Assembly (NCBI RefSeq): GCF_026210795.1
Contig: NC_089432.1
Coordinates: forward strand, 3,286,001-3,350,000
Length of the DNA stretch: 64,000 bases
Direction: 5' to 3'
Source of the DNA: Rhizophagus irregularis
Lineage: Eukaryota; Glomeromycota; Glomeromycetes; Glomerales; Glomeraceae
Shown here: one piece after another, positions 17,688-39,163 of the stretch
Layout: each line of letters opens with the position of its first letter
Numbering within the stretch: the first letter of the stretch is position 1
Translations under genes and position numbers: made by a program
Notes under the pieces: model-generated
What the model was told of the DNA's origin: nothing
The model's database searches: none
The model's input: the letters and a program-made list of their open reading frames with translations, nothing else

Positions 17688-18002
17688 TCAACAACAACAT
17701 CCTCCCTTTAATAAAAAAATTTTTTTCACTTTCTTTAACCTAATTTTCATGTAGTATATATTTTAATAGTACTCTCTCAAAAATTTCATAATGACGTCAT
17801 TGTTTTATATATTACGCAATTACTGCGTTACTGACTTTTTTTGTTTGATAATACCAAATACCAAAATCACGCTGTACTACATCGGAGAAAAAAAAAATTT
17901 ATATAATAAGCACACACAATAAAACTAACAATTTTTACTTTTCATTTTTTTTTTTAACTTTCTGTTAACTTATTATTATTCAATACGTTCGATAATATCA
18001 AA
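17688..18002 (+). other. 5' flank of the kinase gene at 18003
   Basis: AT-rich upstream region. A CT/T-rich tract (ttttcatttttttttttaac) ends about 50 bp before the ATG. I see no distinctive promoter element. Confidence 0.3.
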
Positions 18003-19668
18003 ATGCAAGATACTGAAAATACAAATGAATGGGTTAATTGGATTGAAGAAGCAGTTGATAAAGAACATTTAAAATTTTATAAATATGAAGAATTTAATAA
18101 GATTCAATGTATTGGTACTGGAAGTTTTGGAAACGTATATCGTGCAAATTGGAAAAATTCAGAAAAACTATTTGCGTTAAAATCTTTTTTTAGTCTTAAT
18201 AACATCACCATGAAAGAAATAGTTCGTGAGGTATTTTAATGTATAATACATTTTTTTCTATCTATGAAATTTTATCTAATACCTATCTTTATTTCAAATA
18301 TTTTTATTTTTTATTCAGTTAAAAATTCAACGCCAAGTTGATTTTCATGATAACATTATTCGTTACTATGGAATAACAAAACTTGAGTCAGGTATTATTA
18401 ACATCACCTTGTATAAATATAATACGCAAAATTTTACAAAAGTTCATTTTAATTATTTCTTTTATTCATTAGAAAATCATAATAATTATGGATTAGTAAT
18501 GGAATACGCTGACGACGGTACTCTTCGAAGTTATTTAAAGGAAAATTTTAACAAACTTACTTGGGATGATAAATATAATATGGCATACCAGTTATCTTGT
18601 GCCGTATCATGCTTACATAACGAAAGAATAGTACATCGTGACTTGGTAATTTATTTATTATTTAATCATTAATAGTAATGTATTTTGTATTATTAATTTA
18701 AAAAAAATTGTTTATACATGTTTCTTTAATAGCACTCCTGTAATATACTAGTCCGTAATAACACAATCAAATTAGCAGATTTTGGATTATCTCAAAGAAT
18801 TGGAGCATCATCCAATTTTCAATCTAAATTATTTGGTGTGGTTCCTTATGTCGATCCAAAAAGCTTTAGTAGACGAAAAAATAATAATAATCAATCAACA
18901 CAAATGTACTTATTAAATGAAAAAAGTGATATTTATAGTATAGGCGTATTATTTTGGGAAATATCTAGTGGTCAACCTCCTTTTTATGTTGAGGATGAAC
19001 ATTATGATGTTGGTTTAGTTGTGGAAATTTCACAAGGTCTTAGAGAAATTGTTGTTCCTGACACTCCTGAAGAATATGTTAAAATTTATACTAGTGAGTA
19101 AAATTTAAAAATTTAAATTCTACATTTTTATAATTTAAAATATTATTTTAATTAAATCTTAAATTACATTTATTTCTTAGAATGTTGGGATGGGGAACCA
19201 GATAATCGTCCAACTATATATCAAGTAGTTGATTGGTTAAATGCAATAATTACAAAATCAGATGTAATAATAGAAAATCATCAAATGTCAAATGAACAAG
19301 AACTTAATGAGACTTCTTTAAGTACTAATAATTCAGAATTACAAGGTCAACTTATTCAAAATTTTGATAAAATGATTATTAAAGAAATTGGTCCTATGGC
19401 AATATCAAGTAAACAAGAAAATCATTCAACTGAAAAAGATTTTAACATTATGGTTGATGATAATTGGTCATATGTGATGGGTATAACACCATCAACAGCT
19501 ACGCAAGTGGCTAGCCCAATATCTCCCGTCAGTGTGATCAATCCTAATTATTCCTATCCTATACAAGACGAAGAAGAAGAAGGTGAATGGTTAACTGAAG
19601 ATGAACAAGAGGAGACTCCCGTCAGTGTGATCAATACTAATTATTCCCATCCTATACAGGACGAATAA
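18003..19668 (+). CDS. Protein kinase with captured PIAS C-terminal tail
   Basis: Five exons with consistent phase (18003-18230, 18319-18391, 18473-18645, 18733-19093, 19181-19668) encode 440 residues. The N-terminus EWVNWIEEAV precedes the kinase fold: glycine loop GTGSFGNVY, FALKSF lysine, HRDLHSCNIL catalytic loop, LADFGLS, then YVDPK in the APE position and CWDGEPDNRPT near the C-lobe end. All key catalytic residues are present, so an active Ser/Thr or Tyr-like kinase is expected. Paralogues in this window continue into Sel1 repeats. Here residues ~370 onward are instead acidic sequence copied from the PIAS gene (NWSYVMGITPS, PISPVSVINPNYS, DEEEEGEWLTEDEQEE), with a tandem partial repeat. 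A GAA-to-TAA change in the second unit creates the stop at 19666; the frame would otherwise run 29 more codons to 19755. Confidence 0.85.
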
Positions 19669-25415: not shown

Positions 25416-26757
25416 TTATTTTTTATCTGGTTTAATATCTAAATAAATAAATAAATAAAATTAATTCACATAAATAATTTGCAAAATTAATATACTATAT
25501 TACATACCTAATGACTTCAAATTAAATATACAATCATCCAAATCTTTACTTACTAGCATTTCGTTCACTTTTACATTAGCTTGTGAATCTTCACTTTCAA
25601 GAATTTCATTCACTTTTCCACTAGTAGATGATTGACTTAAATAATAAGCTTGTAAATTTCTACTTTCAAGAATTTCATTCAATTCTTTACTAGTAAAATC
25701 AAGTAAGCGACTTGTATAATATGCCTGTGAATGAGATATAGTAGCAAGGTTATTGTTATGCCCAATTGGTGCGTTTATAAATTCCATAATATTGTATTTT
25801 AATTCTTCATTAATATCTTCAACATTATATGGAGGAGCAATCCAATTTTCAATAATATTTAACACTTCTTTAGAAGATGGCCTTTTTAATGGATTTTCAT
25901 CCCAACACTTTTTCATCAATTCTACATAATGCTGTGGAGTATTTTCAATAATTTCAGGACGTTCACCTTCACAAATACTTAAACTAAGTTGAATATCATG
26001 TGCTTTATTATTATATGGTGGTATTCCAGATGTAAATTCCCACATAATCATAGAAAAACTATATATATCACTAGCTGGAGTATAGGAATTTCCTCTTAAA
26101 ATTTCAGGTGCCATAAATGGTATAACACCATAAATATCATATTTTTTCAAAAATGATTTTACAGGTTTACATAATCCTAAATCACTAATATAAATTTTAC
26201 CCTTATTATGATTTAAAATATTACCATCATGAAAATCACAATGAATAAGCTCTTGTTTATGTATATCATTAAGTCCAGAAATAATTTCAAATAACATATA
26301 TAATTTTTGATTCCAATCACTTTTGATTATTTTTGATAAGTTTCCTCTTAAATTACCTTCATTTGCATAATCCATTACCACCATATATTTCAAAGTATCT
26401 GGATCTTTTGTAAATCCATAAAAATAGATAATATAATATGAACTTAAACAACTTCCATGATATTTCCACTATAAATAATAATAATGATATATTAATATAA
26501 ATAAATATTAATTTAAATAAAAAAATAAATAATATATTATCATACTTCATTTAAAAATTCATTTAAATTTTCACTTAGATTATTATGAAGTTTAAGAATT
26601 ACTTCATTATCTTTATTATCATAAAACCAAGTAGCTTTGTATATTGTACCAAATCTTCCTTTATCAAGATACTCAACATTTTTAAATTTATCATAAGGAA
26701 TCCATTTTAATTTTTTTTCAAAAATAAAATTATCCATAATTGTATTTCCACTTTTTC
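25416..26757 (-). CDS. Protein kinase with Ser/Leu-rich tail; kinase end of the array gene
   Basis: On the minus strand, exon 26546-26757 joins 25508-26468 at a GTATGA...ATAG intron in phase. The ATG at 26735-26737 (MDNFIFEKKL) is a possible start, but the frame is open upstream (GKSGNTI) back to an AG at 26758-26759, so the true N-terminus may lie beyond the intron array. Kinase landmarks: glycine loop LDKGRFGTIY, VILKLHNN lysine, HCDFHDGNIL (Cys for the HRD Arg), ISDLGLCKP (DLG instead of DFG), PFMAPEIL, SDIYSFSMIMWEF and CWDENPLKRPS. The tail carries repeats of the type LNEILESRNLQAYY. The stop is either TAA at 25500-25502, or, after a further GTATGT...TTTAG intron, TAA at 25416-25418 ending DIKPDKK. 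HCD and DLG variants retain the catalytic and metal-binding Asp, so activity is still plausible. Confidence 0.85.
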
Positions 26758-28917
26758 CTAATCTATAAATTTAAATAATCAAAATTATTATTAAAGTTTA
26801 TATTAAAATCACATTAAAATTTAATCAACATTTACCCTAAAATTTAAACAGAAATTTAATATAATGTATATCTTAGTTATATACAATAATAACCTATATT
26901 TTAAAACTTACCAACTAAAGTAACAAAAATTTATATGAAAAGATTCAATTAATAATTATTTATAAAGTATATAACAATAGAAATAACAAATAACTTACAA
27001 GCTGTATTATCAAATTTTTAAATAAAGAATTTAGTTAGTTTAAATTATATACAAATATTATATAAATAAGTAATAGTAGAACTAAATAAATAACTTACAC
27101 CCTATAAATATTATTAAATAATTTTTTAAATAAAGAATTAGTTAGTTTAAATTATATGTAAATATTGTATAAATAAGTAATAATAGAATTAAATAAATAA
27201 CTTACTTCCTATATTATTAAACAATAATTTTTTAAAAATAAAGAATTTATTAGTTAGTTTAAATTATATGTATATATTATATAAATAGTAATAATAGATT
27301 AAATAAATAACTTACTCCCTATTTTTTAAATAAAAAATTTAGTTAGATTGAATTATATGTAAATATTATAACAATAAGTAATAATAGATTAAATAAATAA
27401 CTTAAAACTTACAATCTATTTAAATAAATAATTTAGGTAGTTTAAATTATATGTAAGTATTATATAAATATATAGTAATAGAATTAAATAAATAACTTAT
27501 AGTCTACCAACTAAAAAAATTACAAAATGATTTTTTTGTAAATATTATATAAATAAGTAATAATACTATAGAATTAAATAAATAACTTATAACTTACAAT
27601 CTATTTAAATTAAGGATTTAGTTAGTTTAAATTATATGTAAATATTATATAAATAATTAATAATAGAATTAAATAAATAACTTATAGCCTACCACCTAAA
27701 AAAATTACAAAATAATTTTTTAAGTAAAGAATTCAGTTAGTTTAGTTTAAATTATGTGTAAATATTATATATATAAATAAGTGATAATACTGTAGAATTA
27801 AATAATTAACTTATAACTTACAATCTATTTAAATTAAGAATTTAGTTAGTTTAAATTATATGTAAATATTATATAAATAAATAATATTAGAATTAAATAA
27901 ACAATTTATAACTTACAAACTAAAGAAATTACAAAATAATTTTTTAAAAAAAGAATTTAATTAGTTTAAACAATATGTAAATATTATATAAATAAATCAT
28001 AATAGAATTGAATAAATAACTTATAACTTACTAACTATAATTTTTTAATTAATGTTTTAGTTAGTTAAAATTATATGTAAATATTATAATAGAATTAAAT
28101 AAGTAACTTACAATCTATTAAATAAAAGAAATTAGTTAGTTTAAATTATATACAAATATTATATAAATAAGTAATAATAGAATTAAATAAATAACTTACT
28201 TCCTATATTATTAAATAATTTTTTTTAAATAAAGAATTTAGTTAGTTTAAAATATATGCTAAATATTATTTAAATAAGTAATATTTAAATAAGTAATAAT
28301 AGATTAAATAAATAACTTATAACTTACCAACTAAAAGAAATTACAAAATAATTTTTTAAATAAAGAATTTAGTTAGCTTAAATTATATAAATATTATATA
28401 AGTAAGTAATAATAGAATTAAATAAATAACATACCATCTATAAAATAATTTTTGAATAAAGAATTTAGTTAATTCAAATTATATTAAATTATATAAATAA
28501 GTAATAAAATAACTTATAACTTACAATCTATTTAAATAAAGAATTTAGTAAGTTAAAATTATATGCAAATATTATATAAATGAGTAATACTAGATTTATG
28601 ACTTACGATCTATTTAATAAAGAATTCAGTTAGTTTAAATTATATATAAATAAGTAATAATAGATTAAATAATAACCTATAACTTACCAACTAAAGTAAA
28701 TTACAAAATAATTAATTTAATTTAATAGATTAAATTATATGTAAATATTATATAAATAAGTAAAAATAGAATTAAATAAAATAACTTTTAACTTACCAAC
28801 TAAAAGAGATCACAAAATAATATTTTTAAATAAAAAATTTAGTTAGTTTAAATTATATGTAAATATTATATAACTAAGTAATAATAAGGAAATAATAATT
28901 TTATGCAGGTGTGTTGC

Positions 28918-29028
28918 AACGCACCCCCTTTTTGGAAATTATTAAATAGTAAATTTGCTGATCATAACGTAATCATAGATGATTGACAAATTTACTATTT
29001 AAAAATTTCCAAAAAGGGGGGGTGCGTT
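28918..29028. mobile_element. MITE-like palindromic insertion in the array
   Basis: A 111-bp unit has ends aacgcacccccttttt and the inverse aaaaagggggggtgcgtt. The inverted repeats continue to about 38 bp each (through tggaaatt and aatagtaaattt) around a ~35-bp centre. It interrupts one unit between micro-exon triplets near 28793 and 29065. Its target duplication is unclear because the flanks are repetitive. Confidence 0.75.
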
Positions 29029-32000
29029 CAAATTTTAAACCTTTAAATAAATAACTTATAACTTACGATCTATTTAAAAATAAAGAATTTAATTAGTTTA
29101 AATTATATGTAAATATTATATAAATAAGTAATAATAAGAATTAAATAAATAACTTACTCCCTATATTATTAAATAATTTTTTAAATAAAGAATTTAGTTA
29201 GTTTAAATTATATGTAAATATTATATAAATAAGTAACAATAGAATTATACTTACTCCCTATATTATTAAATAGTTTTTTAAATAAAGAATTTGGTTAGTT
29301 TAAATGATAGAATTAAATAAATAACCTATAACTTACCAACTAAAAGAATTACAAAATAATTTTTTAAATAAAGAAATTAATTAGTTTAAATTATATATAA
29401 ATATTGTATAAATAGAATTAAATAAATAACTTACCAACTATAAAATAATTTTTAAATAAAGAAATTAATTAGTTTAAATTATATATAGATATTGTATAAA
29501 TAGAATTAAATAAATAACTTACACTCTATATTATCTAATAATTTTTTAAATAAAGAATTTAGTTAGTTTAAATTCTATGTAAATATTATATATTATAATT
29601 AAATAAATAACTTATAACTTACCAACTAAGGAAATTACAAAATAATTTTTAAATAAAGAATTTAATTTATGTAAATATTATATAAATAAGTAATAATAGA
29701 ATTAAATACTAAATAATTTATAACTTACGATCTATTAAATAAATAAAAAAATTAGTTAGTTTAAATTATATGCAAATATTATATAAATAAATAATAATAG
29801 AATTAAATAAATAACTTACTCCCTATATTATTAAATAATTTTTTAAATAAAGAATTTAGTTAGTTTAAATTATACGTAAATATCATTTAAATAAGTAATA
29901 ATAGAATTAAATGAATAACCCACTCCCTATATTATTAAATAATTTTTTACATAAAGAATTTAGTTAGTTTTTAAATTATATGCAAATATTATATAAATAA
30001 GTAATAATAGAATTAAATAAATAACTTATAACTTACAATCTATTTAAATAAAGAATTAAGTTAGTTTAAATTATACATAAATATTATATAAATGTACTAA
30101 TAGAATTAAATAAATAACTTATAACTTACGTAAAGAATTTAATTAGTTCAAATTATATGTAAATATTGTATGAATAAGTAATAATAGAATTTAAATAAAT
30201 AACTTATAACTTACCAACTAAAAAAAATTACAAAATAATTTTTTGGATAAAGAATTTAATTAGTTTAAATTATATGTAAAAATTGTATAAATAAGTAATA
30301 ATTAAATAAATATCTTATAATTTACCAACTAAAAGAAATAACAATATAATTTTTTTAAGTAAAGAATTTAGTTAGTTTAAATTATATGCAAATATTATAT
30401 AAATAAGTAATAATAGAATTAATAATGAAATAACTTACTCCCTATATTATTAAATAATTTTTTGAATAAAGAATTTAGTTAGTTTAAATTATAAGCAACA
30501 ATAAAATTAAATAAATAACTTACTCCCTATATTATTAAATAATTTTTTAAATAAAGAATTTAGTTAGTTTAAATTATATAAATATTAAATAAATATGCAA
30601 TAATAGAATTAATAAATAACTTACTCCCTATTATTAAATAATTTTCAAATAAAGAATTTAGTTAGTTTAAATTATATGTAAATATTATAACAATAAGTAA
30701 TAATAGATTAATAGAATTAAATAAATAGCTTATAACTCACCAACTAAAAGAAATTACAAAATAATGTTTTAAATAAATAATTTAGTTATTTTAAATTGTA
30801 TGTAAATATTATACAAATAAGTAATAATAGAATTAAATAAATAACTTATAACTTACCAACTAAAAGAAATTACAAAATAATTTTTTAAATAAAAAATTTT
30901 GTTAGCTTAAATTATATGTAAATATTATATAAATAAGTAATAATAGAATTAAATAAATAACTTACTTCCTATATTATTTAATAATATTTTACATAAAGAA
31001 TATAATTAGTTTAAATTATATGTAAATATTATAACAATAAGTAATAGTAGAATTAAATGAATAACTTATAACCTACCAACTAAAAGAAATTACAAAATAG
31101 TTTTTTTAAATGAAGAATTTAATTAGTTAAAATTATATGTAAATATCAAATAAATAAGTGATATATAAATAAGTAATAATAGAATTAAATAAATAACTTA
31201 TAACTTACTATCTATTTAAAAAAAAATTTAGTTAGTTGAAATTATATGTAAATATTATATAATTAAGTAATAATAGAGTTAAATAAATAACCTACCCCCT
31301 ACATTATTAAATAATTTTTCAAATAAAAAATTTAGTTTAAATTATATGTAAATATTATATAAATAAATAACTTATGACTTACAATCTATTTAAGTAAAGA
31401 ATTTAGTTAGGTTAAATTATATGTAAATATTAAATAAATAAGTGATATATAAATAAGTAACAATAGAATTAAATAAATAAATAACTTACGATCTATTTAA
31501 TTAAGAATTTAATGTTTTATAAATAAGTAATAATAGAATTAAATAAATAACTTACTCCCTGTATTTTTAATAATTTTTTAAATAAAGAATTTAGTTAGTT
31601 TAAATTATAAGCAACAGCAACAATAAATTAAATAAATAACTTACTCCCTATATTATTAAGTAATTTTTTAAATGAAGAATTTAGTTAGTTTAAATTATAT
31701 GTAAATATGTAATAATAGAATTAATAAATAACTTACTCCCTATATTATTAAATAATTTTTTAAATAAAGAATTTAGTTAGATTAAATTATATGTAAGTAT
31801 TTTATAAATAAATAATAATAGAATTAAATAAATAACTTATAGCCTACCGACTAAAAAAATTACAAAATAATTTTTTAAACAGAGAATTTACTTAGTTTAA
31901 ATTATATGCAAATTTTATACAAATAAGTAATAATAGAATTAAATAAATAACTTATAACTTACAATCTATTTAAAAAAGAATTTAGTAGTTAGTTGAAATT

Positions 32001-32692
32001 ATATGTAAATATTATATAATTAAGTAATAATAGAGTTAAATAAATAACCTACCCCCTACATTATTAAATAATTTTTCAAGTAAAAAATTTAGTTTAAATT
32101 ATATGTAAATATTATATAATAAATAACTTATGACTTACAATCTATTTAAGTAAAGAATTTAATTAGGTTAAATTATATGTAAATATTAAATAAATAAGTG
32201 ATATATAAATAAGTAATAATAGAATTAAATAAATAAATAACTTACGATCTACTATTTAATAAAGAATTTAATTAGTCTAAATTATATGTAAATGTTATAT
32301 AAATAAGTAATAATAGAATTAAATAAATAACTTACTCCCTATATTTTTAATAATTTTTTAAATAAAGAATTTAGTTTAAATTATAAATAACAGCAACAAT
32401 AAAATTAAATAAATAACTTACTCCCTATATTATTAAGTAATTTATTAAATGAAGAATTTACTTAGTTTAAATTATATGCAAATTTTATACAAATAAGTAA
32501 TAATAGAATTAAATAAAAAAACTTATAACTTACCAACTAAAAAAATTACAAAATAATATTTTAAAATGAATTTAATTAGTTTAAATTATTTTCAAATATC
32601 ATATAAATAAGTAATAATATAATTGAATAAATAACTTATAACTTATGATCTATTTAAATAAAGAACTTAGTTTAAATTATATGTAAATATTA

Positions 32693-32999
32693 GGCCACAC
32701 AAATTCGAATTTTCGGTTCACTTCACCCGGCCGGGTCACTTTTTCAAATTTCAATAAAAAAAAGTTTATATATAAAAAATTTATCATGTGATCAGAACGT
32801 AATTTTATTGGCGGGTAAGTTTATCACGCGGCTGAGAACTTCTAGAGCGAAAATAAATTCCTCCCTTTTAAAAGTCAACCAATCAAATGTCACGATTTTA
32901 TATATAAACTTTTTTTACTAATAAACAATAAACCCTGGGTCCCCGGGTCGATTTTAAATTTCAATGTTACGTGAACTGAAAAATTGAATTTGTGTGGCC
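32693..32999. mobile_element. PIF/Harbinger-like MITE with TTA target duplication
   Basis: This 307-bp element begins GGCCACACAAATTCGAA and ends with the inverse TTGAATTTGTGTGGCC, giving a ~28-bp terminal inverted repeat. The array unit it interrupts allows an exact reading of the duplication: TTA at 32690-32692 and again at 33000-33002. A 3-bp TWA duplication and GG-starting TIRs are typical of PIF/Harbinger MITEs; the superfamily call is inference. It is more GC-rich than the array and contains no ORF. Confidence 0.85.
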
Positions 33000-34499
33000 T
33001 TATATAAATAAGTAATAATAGAATTAAATAAATAACTTACTCCCTATGTTAGTAAATAATTTTTAAATAAAGAATTTAGTTAGTTTAATTATGTAAATAT
33101 TAAATAAATAAGTAATAATAGAAATTAATTATTTCTTACGATCTATTTAAATAAAGAATTTGGCTAGTTTAAATTATATGTAATTATATAAATAATTAAA
33201 TATAGAATTAAATAAATAGTAACTTACTCTCTATATTATTAAATAATTTTTAAATAAAGAATTTGGTCAGTTTAAATTATATATAAATATTATATAAATA
33301 GGTAAACAAGTAATAATAGAGTTAAGTAAGTGGCTTACTCCCTATATTATTAAATAATTTTTTAAATATATAAAGAAATTAGTTAGTTTAAATTATATGT
33401 AAATATTATAACAATAAGTAATAATAGAATTAAATAAATAACTTATAACTTACAATCTATTTAAAATTTAGTTAGTTTAAATTATATGTAAATATTATAT
33501 AAATAAAGTAATAACAGAATTAGATAAATAACTTATAACTTACAAACTAAAAAAAAATTACAAAATAATTTTTTAAATAAAGAATTTAGTTAGTTTAAAT
33601 TATATGTAAAATATTATATAAATAAGTAATAATAGAATTAAATAAATACTTCCTATATTATTAAATAATTTTTAAAATAAAGAATTTAGTTAGTTTAAAA
33701 TATATATAAATATTATATAAATAAGTAATAATAGAATTAAATAACTTACTTCCTATATTATTAAATAATTTTTTAAATAAAGAATTTAGTTAGTTTAAAA
33801 TATATGTAAATATATATTATAACAATAAGTACTGGTAATAGAATTAAATAAATAACTATAACTTACCAACTAAAAGAAATTACAAAATAATTTTTTAAAT
33901 AAAGAATTTTGTTAGCTTAAATTATATAAATAATAGAAATATATACATCTATAACTTACACCCTAGTATTATTATTAATTAATTATTAGTTAAATATAAA
34001 TATAATACAAAAGTATTTACTGTAATTAAATGTATCACTTACAATCTAGTTATTTAAATTAAGAATATAATTAGTTGAATTATTTAAAATATTAAAATAT
34101 TAACAAACAGATATAATATTGTAACTTACCATCTGTAATACAATTAATTATTAAATAGTTAATTAAATAAAGAATTCAGTTATTATTATATTATGTAAAA
34201 TAAATAAAACAAAGTAAAGAATTAAAGATTTTTTAAATAACCAATAACTTACCGACTATAGTATTATTATATTAATCATTAAATAAATTATTTAGTTACA
34301 TGAAATATAAAAAAATGATAAGTAATTCCATTATTATTCAATTATAAGATAACTTATTAACTTACGAGCTAAATTATTTAATATTATTTTTGTATATATA
34401 GTTAGTTTAATTTGTTATTATGTAAGGTATAAATAATTATAGTTAGTATTTAAATGTATTTACAAATAAAAATTTAATATTTTAGCATGTTTAATATAC

Positions 34500-34725
34500 C
34501 TTTAGATTCCTTGATACTTCTTTCTTCAAATTCTTCAGGGTCACTTTCTTTGAATTCCTCAGAGCTACTTCCTTTAAATTCTTCAGTACTACTTCCTTTA
34601 AATTCAATATTACCAGAAACTAGTTTTATTATATTATAAATTTGTTTAAAAATATTAGAATTCTAATTGTATTAAATGTTTATATTATACATATGATTAT
34701 TACCTTTATCATTACTGAGAACCAT
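34500..34725 (-). CDS. N-terminal exons upstream of the intron array (tentative)
   Basis: On the minus strand an ATG at 34723-34725 begins MVLSNDK (34704-34725). A GTAATA...ACTAG intron (34620-34703) follows, then exon 34500-34619, which continues in frame as VSGNIEFKGSSTEEFKGSSS and on through acidic EEFKESDPEEFEE repeats to SIKESK. It ends one base into a codon before a GTATAT donor. The downstream kinase block, entered at the AG at 26758-26759, needs exactly this phase to read GKSGNTIMDNF. The 3-nt spacers of the intervening array preserve phase whether included or skipped. The four degenerate EEF repeats suggest real coding sequence of unknown function. Alternatively this is a small separate gene. 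Confidence 0.55.
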
Positions 34726-37154: not shown

Positions 37155-39163
37155 ATTTTATAAGTTCTTCTAATCTATTTTGATCTTTTCGATATTCTTG
37201 TTTAGCTGATTTTTCATACCAGTAAATTGCTGTATATAGATCTTTTTAACTCCGTCTCCTTTTTCATATTTCAAAGCAAGATTATATTGTGCTGCCTTTT
37301 ATCCTAAATTTGCAGCTTCCCGATACAATTAAGCTGCCTTTTGCTTATCAATATTAATTCCAATTCCACTACCATAACAATATCCGTATGTAGTGATTCC
37401 TTTTAAATACCCTTATTCAGCTGATCTTTTACATAATTCAAAAGCTTTTCGGTAATCTTTATTATCACCTCCTCTAATATATAAAAGACCAAGATTATGC
37501 ATAGCCATCAAATGTCCATTATTTGCAGCTTTTTCATAAAAATACACAGCCATTTTTAAAATTTTATTAACAATTTTACCAGTTTCATAAAACCAACCTA
37601 AATTAAATTGTCCCATTGCACAATCTTTTTTAGCTACTTTTTTATAATGTAATAATGCCTGCATTTCATTCTTTGGAGTTCCAATTCCAGATTGATATCA
37701 TTTTCCAACAAAATATTGTACTAATATTTGATTCTCTTCTGATACACTCTTAAATAAATTAAAAGCTTTTTCTTCATCTTTTATTGTTCCAATTCCATAA
37801 TAATTAAAATATCCAAGTAAGAAGATTAATTCTAAAGTATTTTGATTATTTGATAACCAATTATAAATTTGAGTGTTGAAATAATCACCTTGTTCTACTA
37901 CACCCCAATCTTTTCCTTTATTTTCTTCCTTAAAAATTAGATCAACTTATTCATTAATCATAATATTAAAATTTTTTTCAAATGGAATATTTTGATTAAT
38001 TTGTTCTTTTGTGATTATCCAATCTCTTTCACTTGTATTAATATTATTGTAATTAGAATTTTGAAACTTTGAAATAAATAACATTTTTAATCTATTAACA
38101 ACTTCATGTACAGTTGGTCGTTTACTCGGTTCATTATTCCAACATTCTAATAATTAAAGAAATGTATTTGATTAAAATGAAGTGACTTAATAAGTAAAAC
38201 AAACAATGCGTTAAATCATATTTACCAGTATACAGAGTGGAATAATCGCTAGGAGTATCAGGAATAATTTCTTCTCTTCGGCCTTGTGAAATGTTATAGA
38301 TTAAACCAATCTTATTTATCTCTTCATGAAATGGTGGTTTCCCACTTGATATTTCCCAAAGTAAAACGCCAATACTATCGATCCTTTTTGATAATCCAAA
38401 ATCTGCCAGTTTGATGGAGTTCCGATGAACCAATACATTACAGGAATGCTATTATAATGAATAAATAAAATTTAATTAATGTAATTTATAAAATATTTTA
38501 TTAATTTATTAAAAAAAAATTACCAAGTCTCGGTGAACAATTTCTGGAACAAGCTAATTGATAAGTAAATTGAATTTATATTCCAACTAAGTCTCTTGAA
38601 GTTTTTGTTTAAATAGTCACGAAGAGATCCACCATCGGCGTATTCCATTATCAATAAATAATTTTTTGTTTGTTCAATTTTATTTTCTAATGAAAAGAAT
38701 AATCACTTTATTTAAAAAAAAATTTATAAGTAAATTTATATTTAGTTATTGATATTTAAATATTTACAAATACCTGATTCAAGTTTTGTAATTCCACAAA
38801 AGCGATTAATATTATCATTAAAATCTATTTCTCGTTAAAGCTTAAACTAAAAATAAAGAAATTAAAAACCTAATAAATATAAAAATAGTACACAAAGTAA
38901 TTATTTAATATATAATCGAATTTTTTTTTAATTACCTCATTAATAATTTCTTTTAAAGTAATACTGTTAAAATTAAAAAAAGATTTCAATGCAAAATAAT
39001 AATGATCATGATTTTTCCAATTTGCACAAAAAACCTTTCCAAAAGATCCAGTTCCAATCTCTTGAATATTTTTAAAATTTCAAATTCATAATATTTAATG
39101 TTTTCTATTGATAGCATCTTCAATCCAATAAATCGATTTATCAATATTTTCATTATTTTGCAT
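37155..39163 (-). pseudogene. Decayed kinase-Sel1 gene copy
   Basis: The minus strand matches the intact gene at 45868-48145 from MQNNENID through the Sel1 repeats, but is broken throughout. Exon 1 has a 2-base loss after the RKH codons and a further 1-base loss. The alpha-C/beta-4 and catalytic-loop exons carry deletions; the codons around VLCLHEKG before the HRD are missing. The fourth exon jumps from [11 protein letters not shown] straight to SIGVLLWEI, removing about 35 codons of activation segment and the YIDPK site. The Sel1 section keeps motifs such as GYFNYYGIGTIKD and AMHNLGLLYIRGG but has several in-frame stops (near 37330 and 37412). It cannot make the full protein. Confidence 0.9.

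Follow-up and report, generated by a model that had tools for sequence, protein, structure and literature searches.

Tandem arrays of putative single-codon exons upstream of kinase-like domains in Rhizophagus irregularis

Runs of very short exons have been described in the micro-exon genes (MEGs) of Schistosoma mansoni, whose exon lengths are mostly multiples of three and which automatic annotation has difficulty in recovering (PMC10526429). In the portions of that account available to us, the exons measure 6–81 bp (3–81 in the abstract), are mostly 15 bp long and number 10–20 per gene, the introns span 0.1 to almost 5 kb, and the products are secreted (PMC10526429); high variability of the MEGs is reported in an excerpt from a second paper (PMC10399815). 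The bicycle genes of aphids, as set out in passages of their description, are fast-evolving and carry many small internal exons in one phase, almost all of them phase 2, with an average of ~17 exons per gene and more than 100 microexons in a megacycle gene (PMC9168663). Still smaller exons, of 3 nt or 1 nt, occur singly, as in Drosophila homothorax (a 3-bp micro-exon), Arabidopsis APC11 and Fusarium CYP621A (excerpts of PMC7392893, PMC12940212, PMC4674806). Here we describe an array of about 70 tandem intron-like units separated by 3 nt, found in a 64,000-nt stretch of the Rhizophagus irregularis genome (contig NC_089432.1, positions 3,286,001–3,350,000; hereafter the window), together with its relatives elsewhere in that genome. 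Very probably, the 3-nt spacers are true single-codon exons, spliced in, translated and tandemly amplified to encode a hypervariable segment ahead of a kinase domain.

The kinase-family arrays, a comparison set of 34 loci made up of the window and 33 other arrays of its genome, resemble the MEGs in that short exons follow one another with lengths divisible by three, apart from some exceptions (3 nt in 1336 exons, 923 and 413 in two successive sets). They differ from them in that the exons are exactly 3 nt, with up to 85 in an uninterrupted run (L035, the longest found), instead of 6–81 bp and mostly 15, and in that the introns are similar to one another, tandem and of median length 96 nt (among introns of 140 nt or less), with a kinase domain following on ordinary exons. 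In contrast to the phase 2 of the bicycle genes, the arrays are in phase 1, as read from the first two exons and from the depletion of stop codons detailed below, and the passages available on the bicycle genes describe neither 3-nt tandem units nor a kinase (PMC9168663). The tiny exons of homothorax, APC11 and CYP621A, as far as the excerpts go, stand singly in ordinary genes and not in arrays. The ratchet points of recursive splicing are described as acceptors lying directly beside donors, with stepwise intron removal. Ratchet points leave no exon, whereas the R. irregularis arrays keep 3 nt at each step, and the order of these 3-nt exons matters for the frame. Fungal incompatibility genes with WD40-type repeats combine concerted evolution of the repeat unit with diversifying selection on a small number of hypervariable codons. 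In those genes the repeat itself is coding; in the R. irregularis arrays, homogenisation affects the introns, and the exons are confined to the variable codons. The earlier note on this DNA, made from its letters, knew of no described gene with such an architecture, and the literature agrees insofar as the matches listed among openly licensed full texts include neither 3-nt exon arrays nor microexons in Rhizophagus.

On the minus strand of the window, between 34368 and 26914, lie 69 curated junctions of the form AG-NNN-GT (regular expression AG-NNN-GT[AG][AGT]); the raw expression matched 73 times between 34700 and 26501, and four matches were dropped, three of them inside a coding exon at 34595–34547 and one (29253) overlapping a better match. 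Each unit of ~100 nt reads GTAAGT, then CTAAC or CTAAT, then TAG, three bases and the next GTAAGT. Within the same interval, 58 of the 59 GTAAG words stand exactly 3 nt past the nearest TAG or CAG, the remaining one standing 88 nt past, and no stop triplet occurs among the 69 spacers. The count of about 70 junctions with a 3-nt spacer and the lack of stop triplets, both claimed in the earlier note, are thus upheld, and the limits it gave for the array, 34499 and 26758, come very close, exon 2 being followed immediately by base 34499 and the final exon ahead of the kinase exon lying at 26836 (Table 1). Its picture of a regular array holds for the 3-nt spacing but not throughout for the units, since two inverted-repeat insertions lie inside introns and one acceptor is deleted near 30133 (a 178-nt step, judged from reading the sequence). 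Two exons of the parsed window chain, the 5-nt TTCAC at 32975–32971 and GGG at 28927, are artefacts of these insertions, the former of that at 32693..32999 and the latter of the hairpin. The insertions are transposon-like and the junctions around them are intact, so that the introns appear to tolerate them.

Table 1. Features of the array gene in the window (positions within the 64,000-nt stretch)
Feature	Position	Strand	Description
Exon 1	34704..34725	-	Start codon; ATG GTT CTC AGT AAT GAT AAA G (MVLSNDK); phase-1 end before GTAA
Exon 2	34500..34619	-	120 nt; VSGNIEFKGSSTEEFKGSSSEEFKESDPEEFEERSIKESK; 24-nt internal repeats; phase 1 in and out
3-nt exon CTC	34366..34368	-	First; conserved 5' edge
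3-nt exon TCG	34253..34255	-	Edge; TTG or TTA in many paralogs
3-nt exon ATG	34130..34132	-	Edge
3-nt exon ATT	34043..34045	-	Edge
3-nt exon GGT	33960..33962	-	Edge
Amplified array interior	27099..33869	-	Majority of the 69 3-nt exons (TTG, GGA, ATT, ATC, GAA, others); ~100-nt units
Insertion with terminal inverted repeats	32693..32999 (arms 32676-33016)	-	GGCCACACAAATTC; in one array intron
Hairpin insertion	28924..29020	-	42-nt arms; in one array intron
3-nt exon CTT	26999..27001	-	Conserved 3' edge
3-nt exon TTG	26912..26914	-	Last of the 3-nt exons; conserved 3' edge
1-nt exon G	26836	-	Between TTTTAG and GTAAAT; phase 1 to phase 2; A in most paralogs
First kinase exon	26546..26762	-	A/TTA GGA AAA AGT GGA...; LGKSGNTIMDNF...KWIPYDKF...GRFGTIYKATW
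Second kinase exon	25500..26468	-	Through stop codon

The exons predicted to flank the array close the reading frame across it. The order common to the family is exon 1, exon 2, a set of edge exons (variants aside, CT[CT], TT[AG], ATG, ATT, GGT among paralogs), the amplified part of the array, then CTT and TTG, a single-base exon and the kinase exon. Exons similar to the window's exon 1 are carried by paralogs (MAHSNDK, MGQSNGK, MGQCISK, MAQSNNE), and an exon 1 with ATG was found at 16 of 26 loci, although the pattern used imposes phase 1 and the unforced view of the phase is the comparison of the window with its paralogs. By eye, kinase-family N-termini such as MAQSNNE or MGQCISK are unlike signal peptides. 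With one base carried over from exon 2, n exons of 3 nt and a 1-nt exon, the sum 1 + 3n + 1 equals 2 modulo 3, and the kinase exon needs precisely two bases before it; with the 1-nt exon removed, the kinase would be out of frame. The first kinase exon is in phase 2 in all 28 loci where its phase was measured. The 1-nt exon context, [CTG]AG-N-GTAA, lies downstream of the array in 33 of the 34 kinase-family loci, and so does a kinase-like exon, the exception in both cases being a locus (L002) whose piece of sequence ends 42 nt past the array. The exact CTT-TTG-A edge occurs 61 times in the genome (146.7 Mb in 32 contigs) and not once in the control. Among eight loci taken up later, the terminal 1-nt exon is the A or G predicted beforehand in six (A in four by script, and A by eye in L037 and L038) and departs from it in two (C in L040 by script, T in L041 by eye). 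The edge residues [LF]-x-[DN]-W-[WFY], each of whose codons is split over two exons, are complete in 10 of 18 loci.

The kinase identity itself (PF07714/PF00069) is a matter of profile score for two loci and of motif alone for the others. Both kinase exons of the window together match PF07714 with E=1.3e-42 (146.3 bits, cut-off 23.1), and L006, whose array counts 47 exons of 3 nt, yields an open assembled protein of 435 aa whose kinase domain scores 114.5 bits (E=6.6e-33, same cut-off of 23.1). In the motif searches for a kinase exon, a first pattern matched nothing, a strict motif matched 21 of the 34 loci and a looser motif set 33, the last matching a later kinase exon in L006, L014, L015 and L018.

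This frame arithmetic bears on the second outcome envisaged in the earlier note, namely that the array is one giant intron, removed whole or recursively without residue, its units being ratchet-like sites or relics. Tandem repeats do occur in introns, and the juxtaposition of AG and GT resembles recursive splice sites. However, exon 2 leaves in phase 1 and the kinase exon enters in phase 2, so that joining them directly in the window gives a stop at the second codon past the junction (ESKD*); the spacer is kept at 3 nt and not at 0 nt; and the stop-codon depletion described next, which depends on exon order, has no cause if the spacers never meet in an mRNA. A giant intron is accordingly highly improbable.

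In phase 1, the 3' base of each exon is read together with the two 5' bases of its successor, which lies ~100 nt away in the DNA, to form a junction codon. Exon order was permuted within each locus, so that every locus retained its set of exons and lost nothing but the information on which exon adjoins which. The test took in the window and 33 of 41 array loci, with L021 and L030 kept despite their stops, and left out FAM2 (L001, L007, L008), its relative L033, and L022, L023, L024 and L025. In both sets of loci pooled, 2 of 1251 phase-1 junction codons are stops, against ~39 expected from the order shuffles. The first 26 loci gave 2 stops in 858 codons against 27.8 expected (sd 4.0), with none of 20000 shuffles as low, and no depletion in phase 2 (107 stops against 104.3 expected). 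Counting distinct transitions once per locus, which allows for block duplication, left 2 stops in phase 1, where 22.8 (sd 4.1) were expected, and 86 in phase 2, where 79.5 were. The test, fixed beforehand, was then applied to eight arrays not yet read and gave 0 of 393 against 11.1 expected (sd 2.7; none of 20000 shuffles) in phase 1, with 66 against 57.2 in phase 2. In approximately nine of the first 26 loci, the exon content yields no phase-1 stop in any order, and these loci carry no weight in the test. A phase-0 reading was considered and set aside: phase 0 is open in the window, yet phase 1 is dictated by the flanking exons, and the 2 phase-0 stops stand against 28.4 expected from column composition, a poor null given the few exon types. 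Depletion that depends on exon order and is confined to phase 1 is difficult to account for if adjacent 3-nt exons are not brought together in mRNA and translated. Together with the frame closure, the 1-nt exon and the paralogs, this lends support to the first alternative of the earlier note, a gene with dozens of consecutive 3-nt exons.

Translation of the array is also what separates this reading from a location in a 5' untranslated region (UTR), with translation starting in the kinase exon. The window does have an ATG (MDNF) near the start of that exon. Yet the codon is not kept, being GTGGAT in L003 and ATAGAT in L004, the exon 1 with ATG recurs across loci as noted above (with its pattern imposing phase 1), and untranslated exons would not avoid phase-1 stops; we regard a 5' UTR array as scarcely credible. 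More serious is the suggestion that the exons are spliced but often skipped, one gene thereby giving many peptide variants. Any 3-nt exon could be removed without loss of frame, the 1-nt exon alone restoring phase 2, so that subsets of exons are skippable in frame and alternative inclusion is possible. Against frequent skipping, the stop depletion follows genomic order, so that most neighbours ought to be joined in most products, a statement that concerns the adjacent pairs tested; random skipping would select against stops between non-adjacent exons as well. We consider frequent skipping rather doubtful and the inclusion of most exons the better inference.

The 3-nt rule is specific and genome-wide. 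The window repeat itself recurs at no fewer than ~20 other places (manual grouping of the matches listed), and when any intron sequence was admitted, triple AG-NNN-GTAAG junctions numbered 2732 (1376+1356) against 24 for the reversed pattern (1+23). With a 2-nt spacer, triple junctions numbered 2 (1+1) against 64 (38+26), and with a 4-nt spacer 56 (43+13) against 20 (8+12); by eye, all but one row of the listed 4-nt matches belong to Sel1-like coding repeats or to a satellite of 84 bp. When the spacer was 6 nt, pairs of junctions were found 48 times against 97 in the control, a few of these matches falling in true arrays on C21, C24 and C13 (L022). A rough proportion, from the first ~100 listed triples grouped into 8 arrays, puts the total at roughly 200 arrays. 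The 84-bp satellite, which carries AG-4 nt-GTAAG in each unit, is present in near-identical copies at many loci, for example C2:1042832-1043514.

Exon lengths were also recovered without assuming them, by dynamic programming over all donors and acceptors with exons of 0–15 nt allowed and no length preferred; the core of each chain runs from the first to the last run of three 3-nt exons, a definition that favours 3 nt at the core ends only. Core exons are 3 nt in 734 of 768 cases for 18 kinase-family loci plus FAM2 and in 413 of 425 for the eight later loci. A previous run, not cropped to the core, had given 3-nt exons in 717 of 861 cases; the reversed and complementary controls gave 11 of 576, their commonest length being 12 nt. 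Zero-length exons, though allowed, are absent from the cores of both chain sets, and one degenerate AG/GTAAG lies outside the core of L041. The introns have the features of ordinary ones: 851 of 949 donors in 26 loci are GTAAGT and 12 are GCAAGT, and a CTRAY branch-like motif marks 724 of 929 introns, a figure that shuffling reduces to 204 of 929. In L013, GC donors fill most of the seemingly missing units. As observations in their own right, repeated GC-AG introns (TTG/GCAAGT) were amplified along with the array in L013, and 6-nt exons, also multiples of three, occur in L021 (8 of 67 core exons) and L038 (two ATTCTT, by eye).

When each unit was compared with the nearest unit of its own array, the GT bases differed at 3 of 1085 positions and the AG bases at 1 of 1095, against 2.8% for the intron body and 22%, 11.5% and 23% for exon positions 1, 2 and 3. 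The earlier note had argued that retention of GT speaks against a neutral minisatellite and had proposed aligning the units for this comparison; the argument is borne out, with GT and AG far below the body rate. What the note had not seen is that the spacers change faster than any other bases and that their reading phase is 1 rather than 0. As the parser admits only GT or GC donors, lost splice sites have to be counted apart: 18 introns of 141–300 nt (insertions included) stand beside 853 units, where the body rate predicts that ~10.7% of units would lose a splice base. Edge units whose introns have diverged still retain AG-NNN-GTAAG. A conservation test anchored in the intron body was abandoned in favour of the nearest-unit tests, having mixed two unit types and picked near-identical anchors.

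These figures weigh on the proposal that the array is a neutral or satellite-like minisatellite in which GT and AG occur by accident. Such arrays are numerous and tandem, with duplication and turnover, as that proposal would have it. It does not account for position-specific constraint at GT and AG, for diverged edge units that keep AG-NNN-GTAAG, for a 3-nt rule common to sequence-unrelated arrays (FAM2, L024, L025), or for stop depletion in a single frame together with a 1-nt exon context and a kinase exon downstream at all but one locus, and an accidental origin of the sites is therefore extremely improbable.

Exon variability was further measured among units with near-identical flanks. In 183 pairs sharing 80 identical flanking bases, with partners picked by flanks alone, exon positions 1, 2 and 3 differed 35, 8 and 40 times; because one unit may be nearest to several others, such pair counts are pseudo-replicated, and cluster counts were used instead. 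Across the 59 identical-flank clusters, comprising 242 units, the 177 exon sites carry 41 extra alleles; the 4720 flank sites carry none, as the definition of the clusters requires. At 97.5% flank identity, extra alleles in the first set number 64 for 225 exon sites and 153 for 6000 flank sites, and in the second 20 for 108 and 50 for 2880 (9 for 93 exon sites in its identical class). Exon bases thus vary ~10x as much as the flanks. Exon position 2, which phase 1 makes the third base of the codon, varies least in the first set and also in the second at 95% and 97.5% flank identity, being tied in the identical class. The exon changes that could be classified comprise 91 nonsynonymous and 8 synonymous ones (91/99), a ratio from pseudo-replicated pairs with no neutral expectation beside it. 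Exon hypervariability is a property of the kinase family and is suggested for L024; FAM2, at 90% identity, has 0, 0.25 and 0.125 extra alleles per site at the three exon positions against 0.12 in the flanks, with no clear excess. Diversifying selection on the encoded peptide probably drives the exon changes in the kinase family, although intron-restricted conversion, or a process acting specifically on exons, may instead be their source.

Near-identical introns around differing exons would also result if an ordinary coding exon had been cut into codons by introner-like mobile intron copies, the introns being recent and the codons old. This proposal accounts in addition for exons of 6, 9 and 12 nt (L021, L022), and similar introns do recur at many loci; of the 34 such arrays examined, 33 precede a kinase-like exon, and the introns of FAM2 are unrelated. 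Against the proposal stand the paralogs L026-L032, whose 3' flanks are 94–99% identical in four pairs while their arrays, of 16–38 three-nt exons, differ in length and content, and the block duplications in exon strings, such as CTG CAT ATG ATC ATC occurring twice in L027, which are what tandem duplication predicts. Invasion by introns is unlikely as the origin of the arrays. The arrays of these paralogs are not alignable by eye.

Arrays also occur outside the kinase family. FAM2, on C1 at ~1723675-1731434, is unrelated in sequence to the window array, with 3-nt exons at 68 of 69 core positions and acceptors that are mostly ACCAG. It has 3, 5 and 0 stops in phases 0, 1 and 2, phase 2 alone being open, which is weak by itself against a shuffle expectation of 0.75. 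The predicted peptide starts MDERLWEELEESLKGLLPPTIPPPPPLPGRLP..., with a start codon split across two exons, and a 26-nt exon closes the frame into a coiled-coil-like open reading frame (ORF) of 931 aa, as read from the sequence; the start of this ORF has no Pfam match. Further C1 matches and one on C20 to the FAM2 protein were considered as retrocopies and rejected, reflecting coiled-coil-like paralogy instead. L024 has 31 consecutive 3-nt exons with phases 0 and 1 open, phase 0 ending in a hydrophobic stretch (LLLLLFLFWIISIISLL), and its two downstream ORF pieces have no Pfam match. L025 lies upstream of a Sel1-repeat ORF, and L023, which is kinase-like, has 23 exons and no stop in any phase. 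At L022 (C13:247000-251800), the introns are unrelated and 23 of 27 chain exons are 3, 6, 9, 12 or 15 nt long; this locus is possibly a less extreme relative of the 3-nt architecture. As FAM2, L024, L025 and L022 are unrelated in sequence to the kinase arrays, the multiple-of-three rule is not confined to one repeat family.

Several findings weigh against single-codon exons. L021 and L030 each have one in-frame stop; L009, L011, L013, L019 and L026 contain frame-breaking exons of 1, 2 or 4 nt, and other loci have odd chain exons of 5–15 nt; and the kinase exon of L005 is interrupted near its start. The copies with frame-breaking exons may be decaying, may reflect assembly errors or may skip the exons in question. 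Stop triplets are rare as exons (2 of 923 in the first set, 0 of 413 in the second), which phase 1 does not require; as a guess, AG followed by TRA makes GTRAGT, a competing donor, which would explain the rarity. No particular peptide is conserved, as array content is not shared even between paralogs with 94–99% identical 3' flanks, and a single search with the FAM2 protein as query found no spliced retrocopy.

How such a gene might be expressed can be outlined from its anatomy. The pre-mRNA would be spliced ~70 times in succession by ordinary intron-definition splicing, using the ~96-nt introns with their GTAAGT donors, CTRAY branch-like sites and TAG acceptors, each step adding one 3-nt exon. 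Removal of an intron would join a 3-nt exon to the long upstream exon, whereupon the next donor would be used, the order of steps being our inference; with intron definition and stepwise joining, no tiny exon would need to be bound from both sides at once. The final 1-nt exon would shift the frame for correct reading of the kinase exon. The product would comprise a short N-terminal piece (an MGQSN-like start and exon 2), a hypervariable segment of ~15–85 residues and the kinase domain. Unit number would shift by tandem duplication and deletion; these events would preserve similarity among the introns, even as the exon bases evolve very rapidly. The gene may plausibly serve recognition, in which the variable segment would sense and the kinase signal. 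Going further, the kinase, coiled-coil-like, Sel1-repeat and other families of this arbuscular mycorrhizal fungus may share a codon-by-codon diversity system in which homogenised introns and exons made hypervariable by strong diversifying selection, or by an exon-directed process, build a recognition segment ahead of a signalling domain, for instance for self/non-self or partner recognition; we offer this tentatively, as somewhat less probable than its contrary.

If the arrays are what they appear to be, they include the longest runs of minimal exons known to us, and the spliceosome can assemble a protein segment codon by codon. Splicing would then serve as a substrate for hypervariability, with frame-safe units gained and lost by duplication, the codon exposed to change and the intron holding the homology. 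The arrays would likewise lend themselves to the study of how introns are defined, in which order they are removed and how faithfully. As 3-nt exons are difficult for read aligners, these observations suggest that the annotation of the R. irregularis genome, for which an excerpt reports 2,533 kinase genes in strain DAOM197198 (PMC10234402), misses or mis-joins many kinase genes.

Two further observations concern the arrays and their surroundings. In L040, chain exons 28–29, 45–46 and 62–63 fall in a repeated segment with G-rich pieces of 8–9 nt (e.g. GGGGAGGGG) that are bounded by acceptor-like and donor-like sites; the segment may be an insertion that was amplified along with the array. In the window, neighbouring reading frames at 17958-19668 (plus strand) and 37413-38448 (minus strand) are by eye kinase-like and Sel1/kinase-like, respectively, so that the array gene sits among other such genes.

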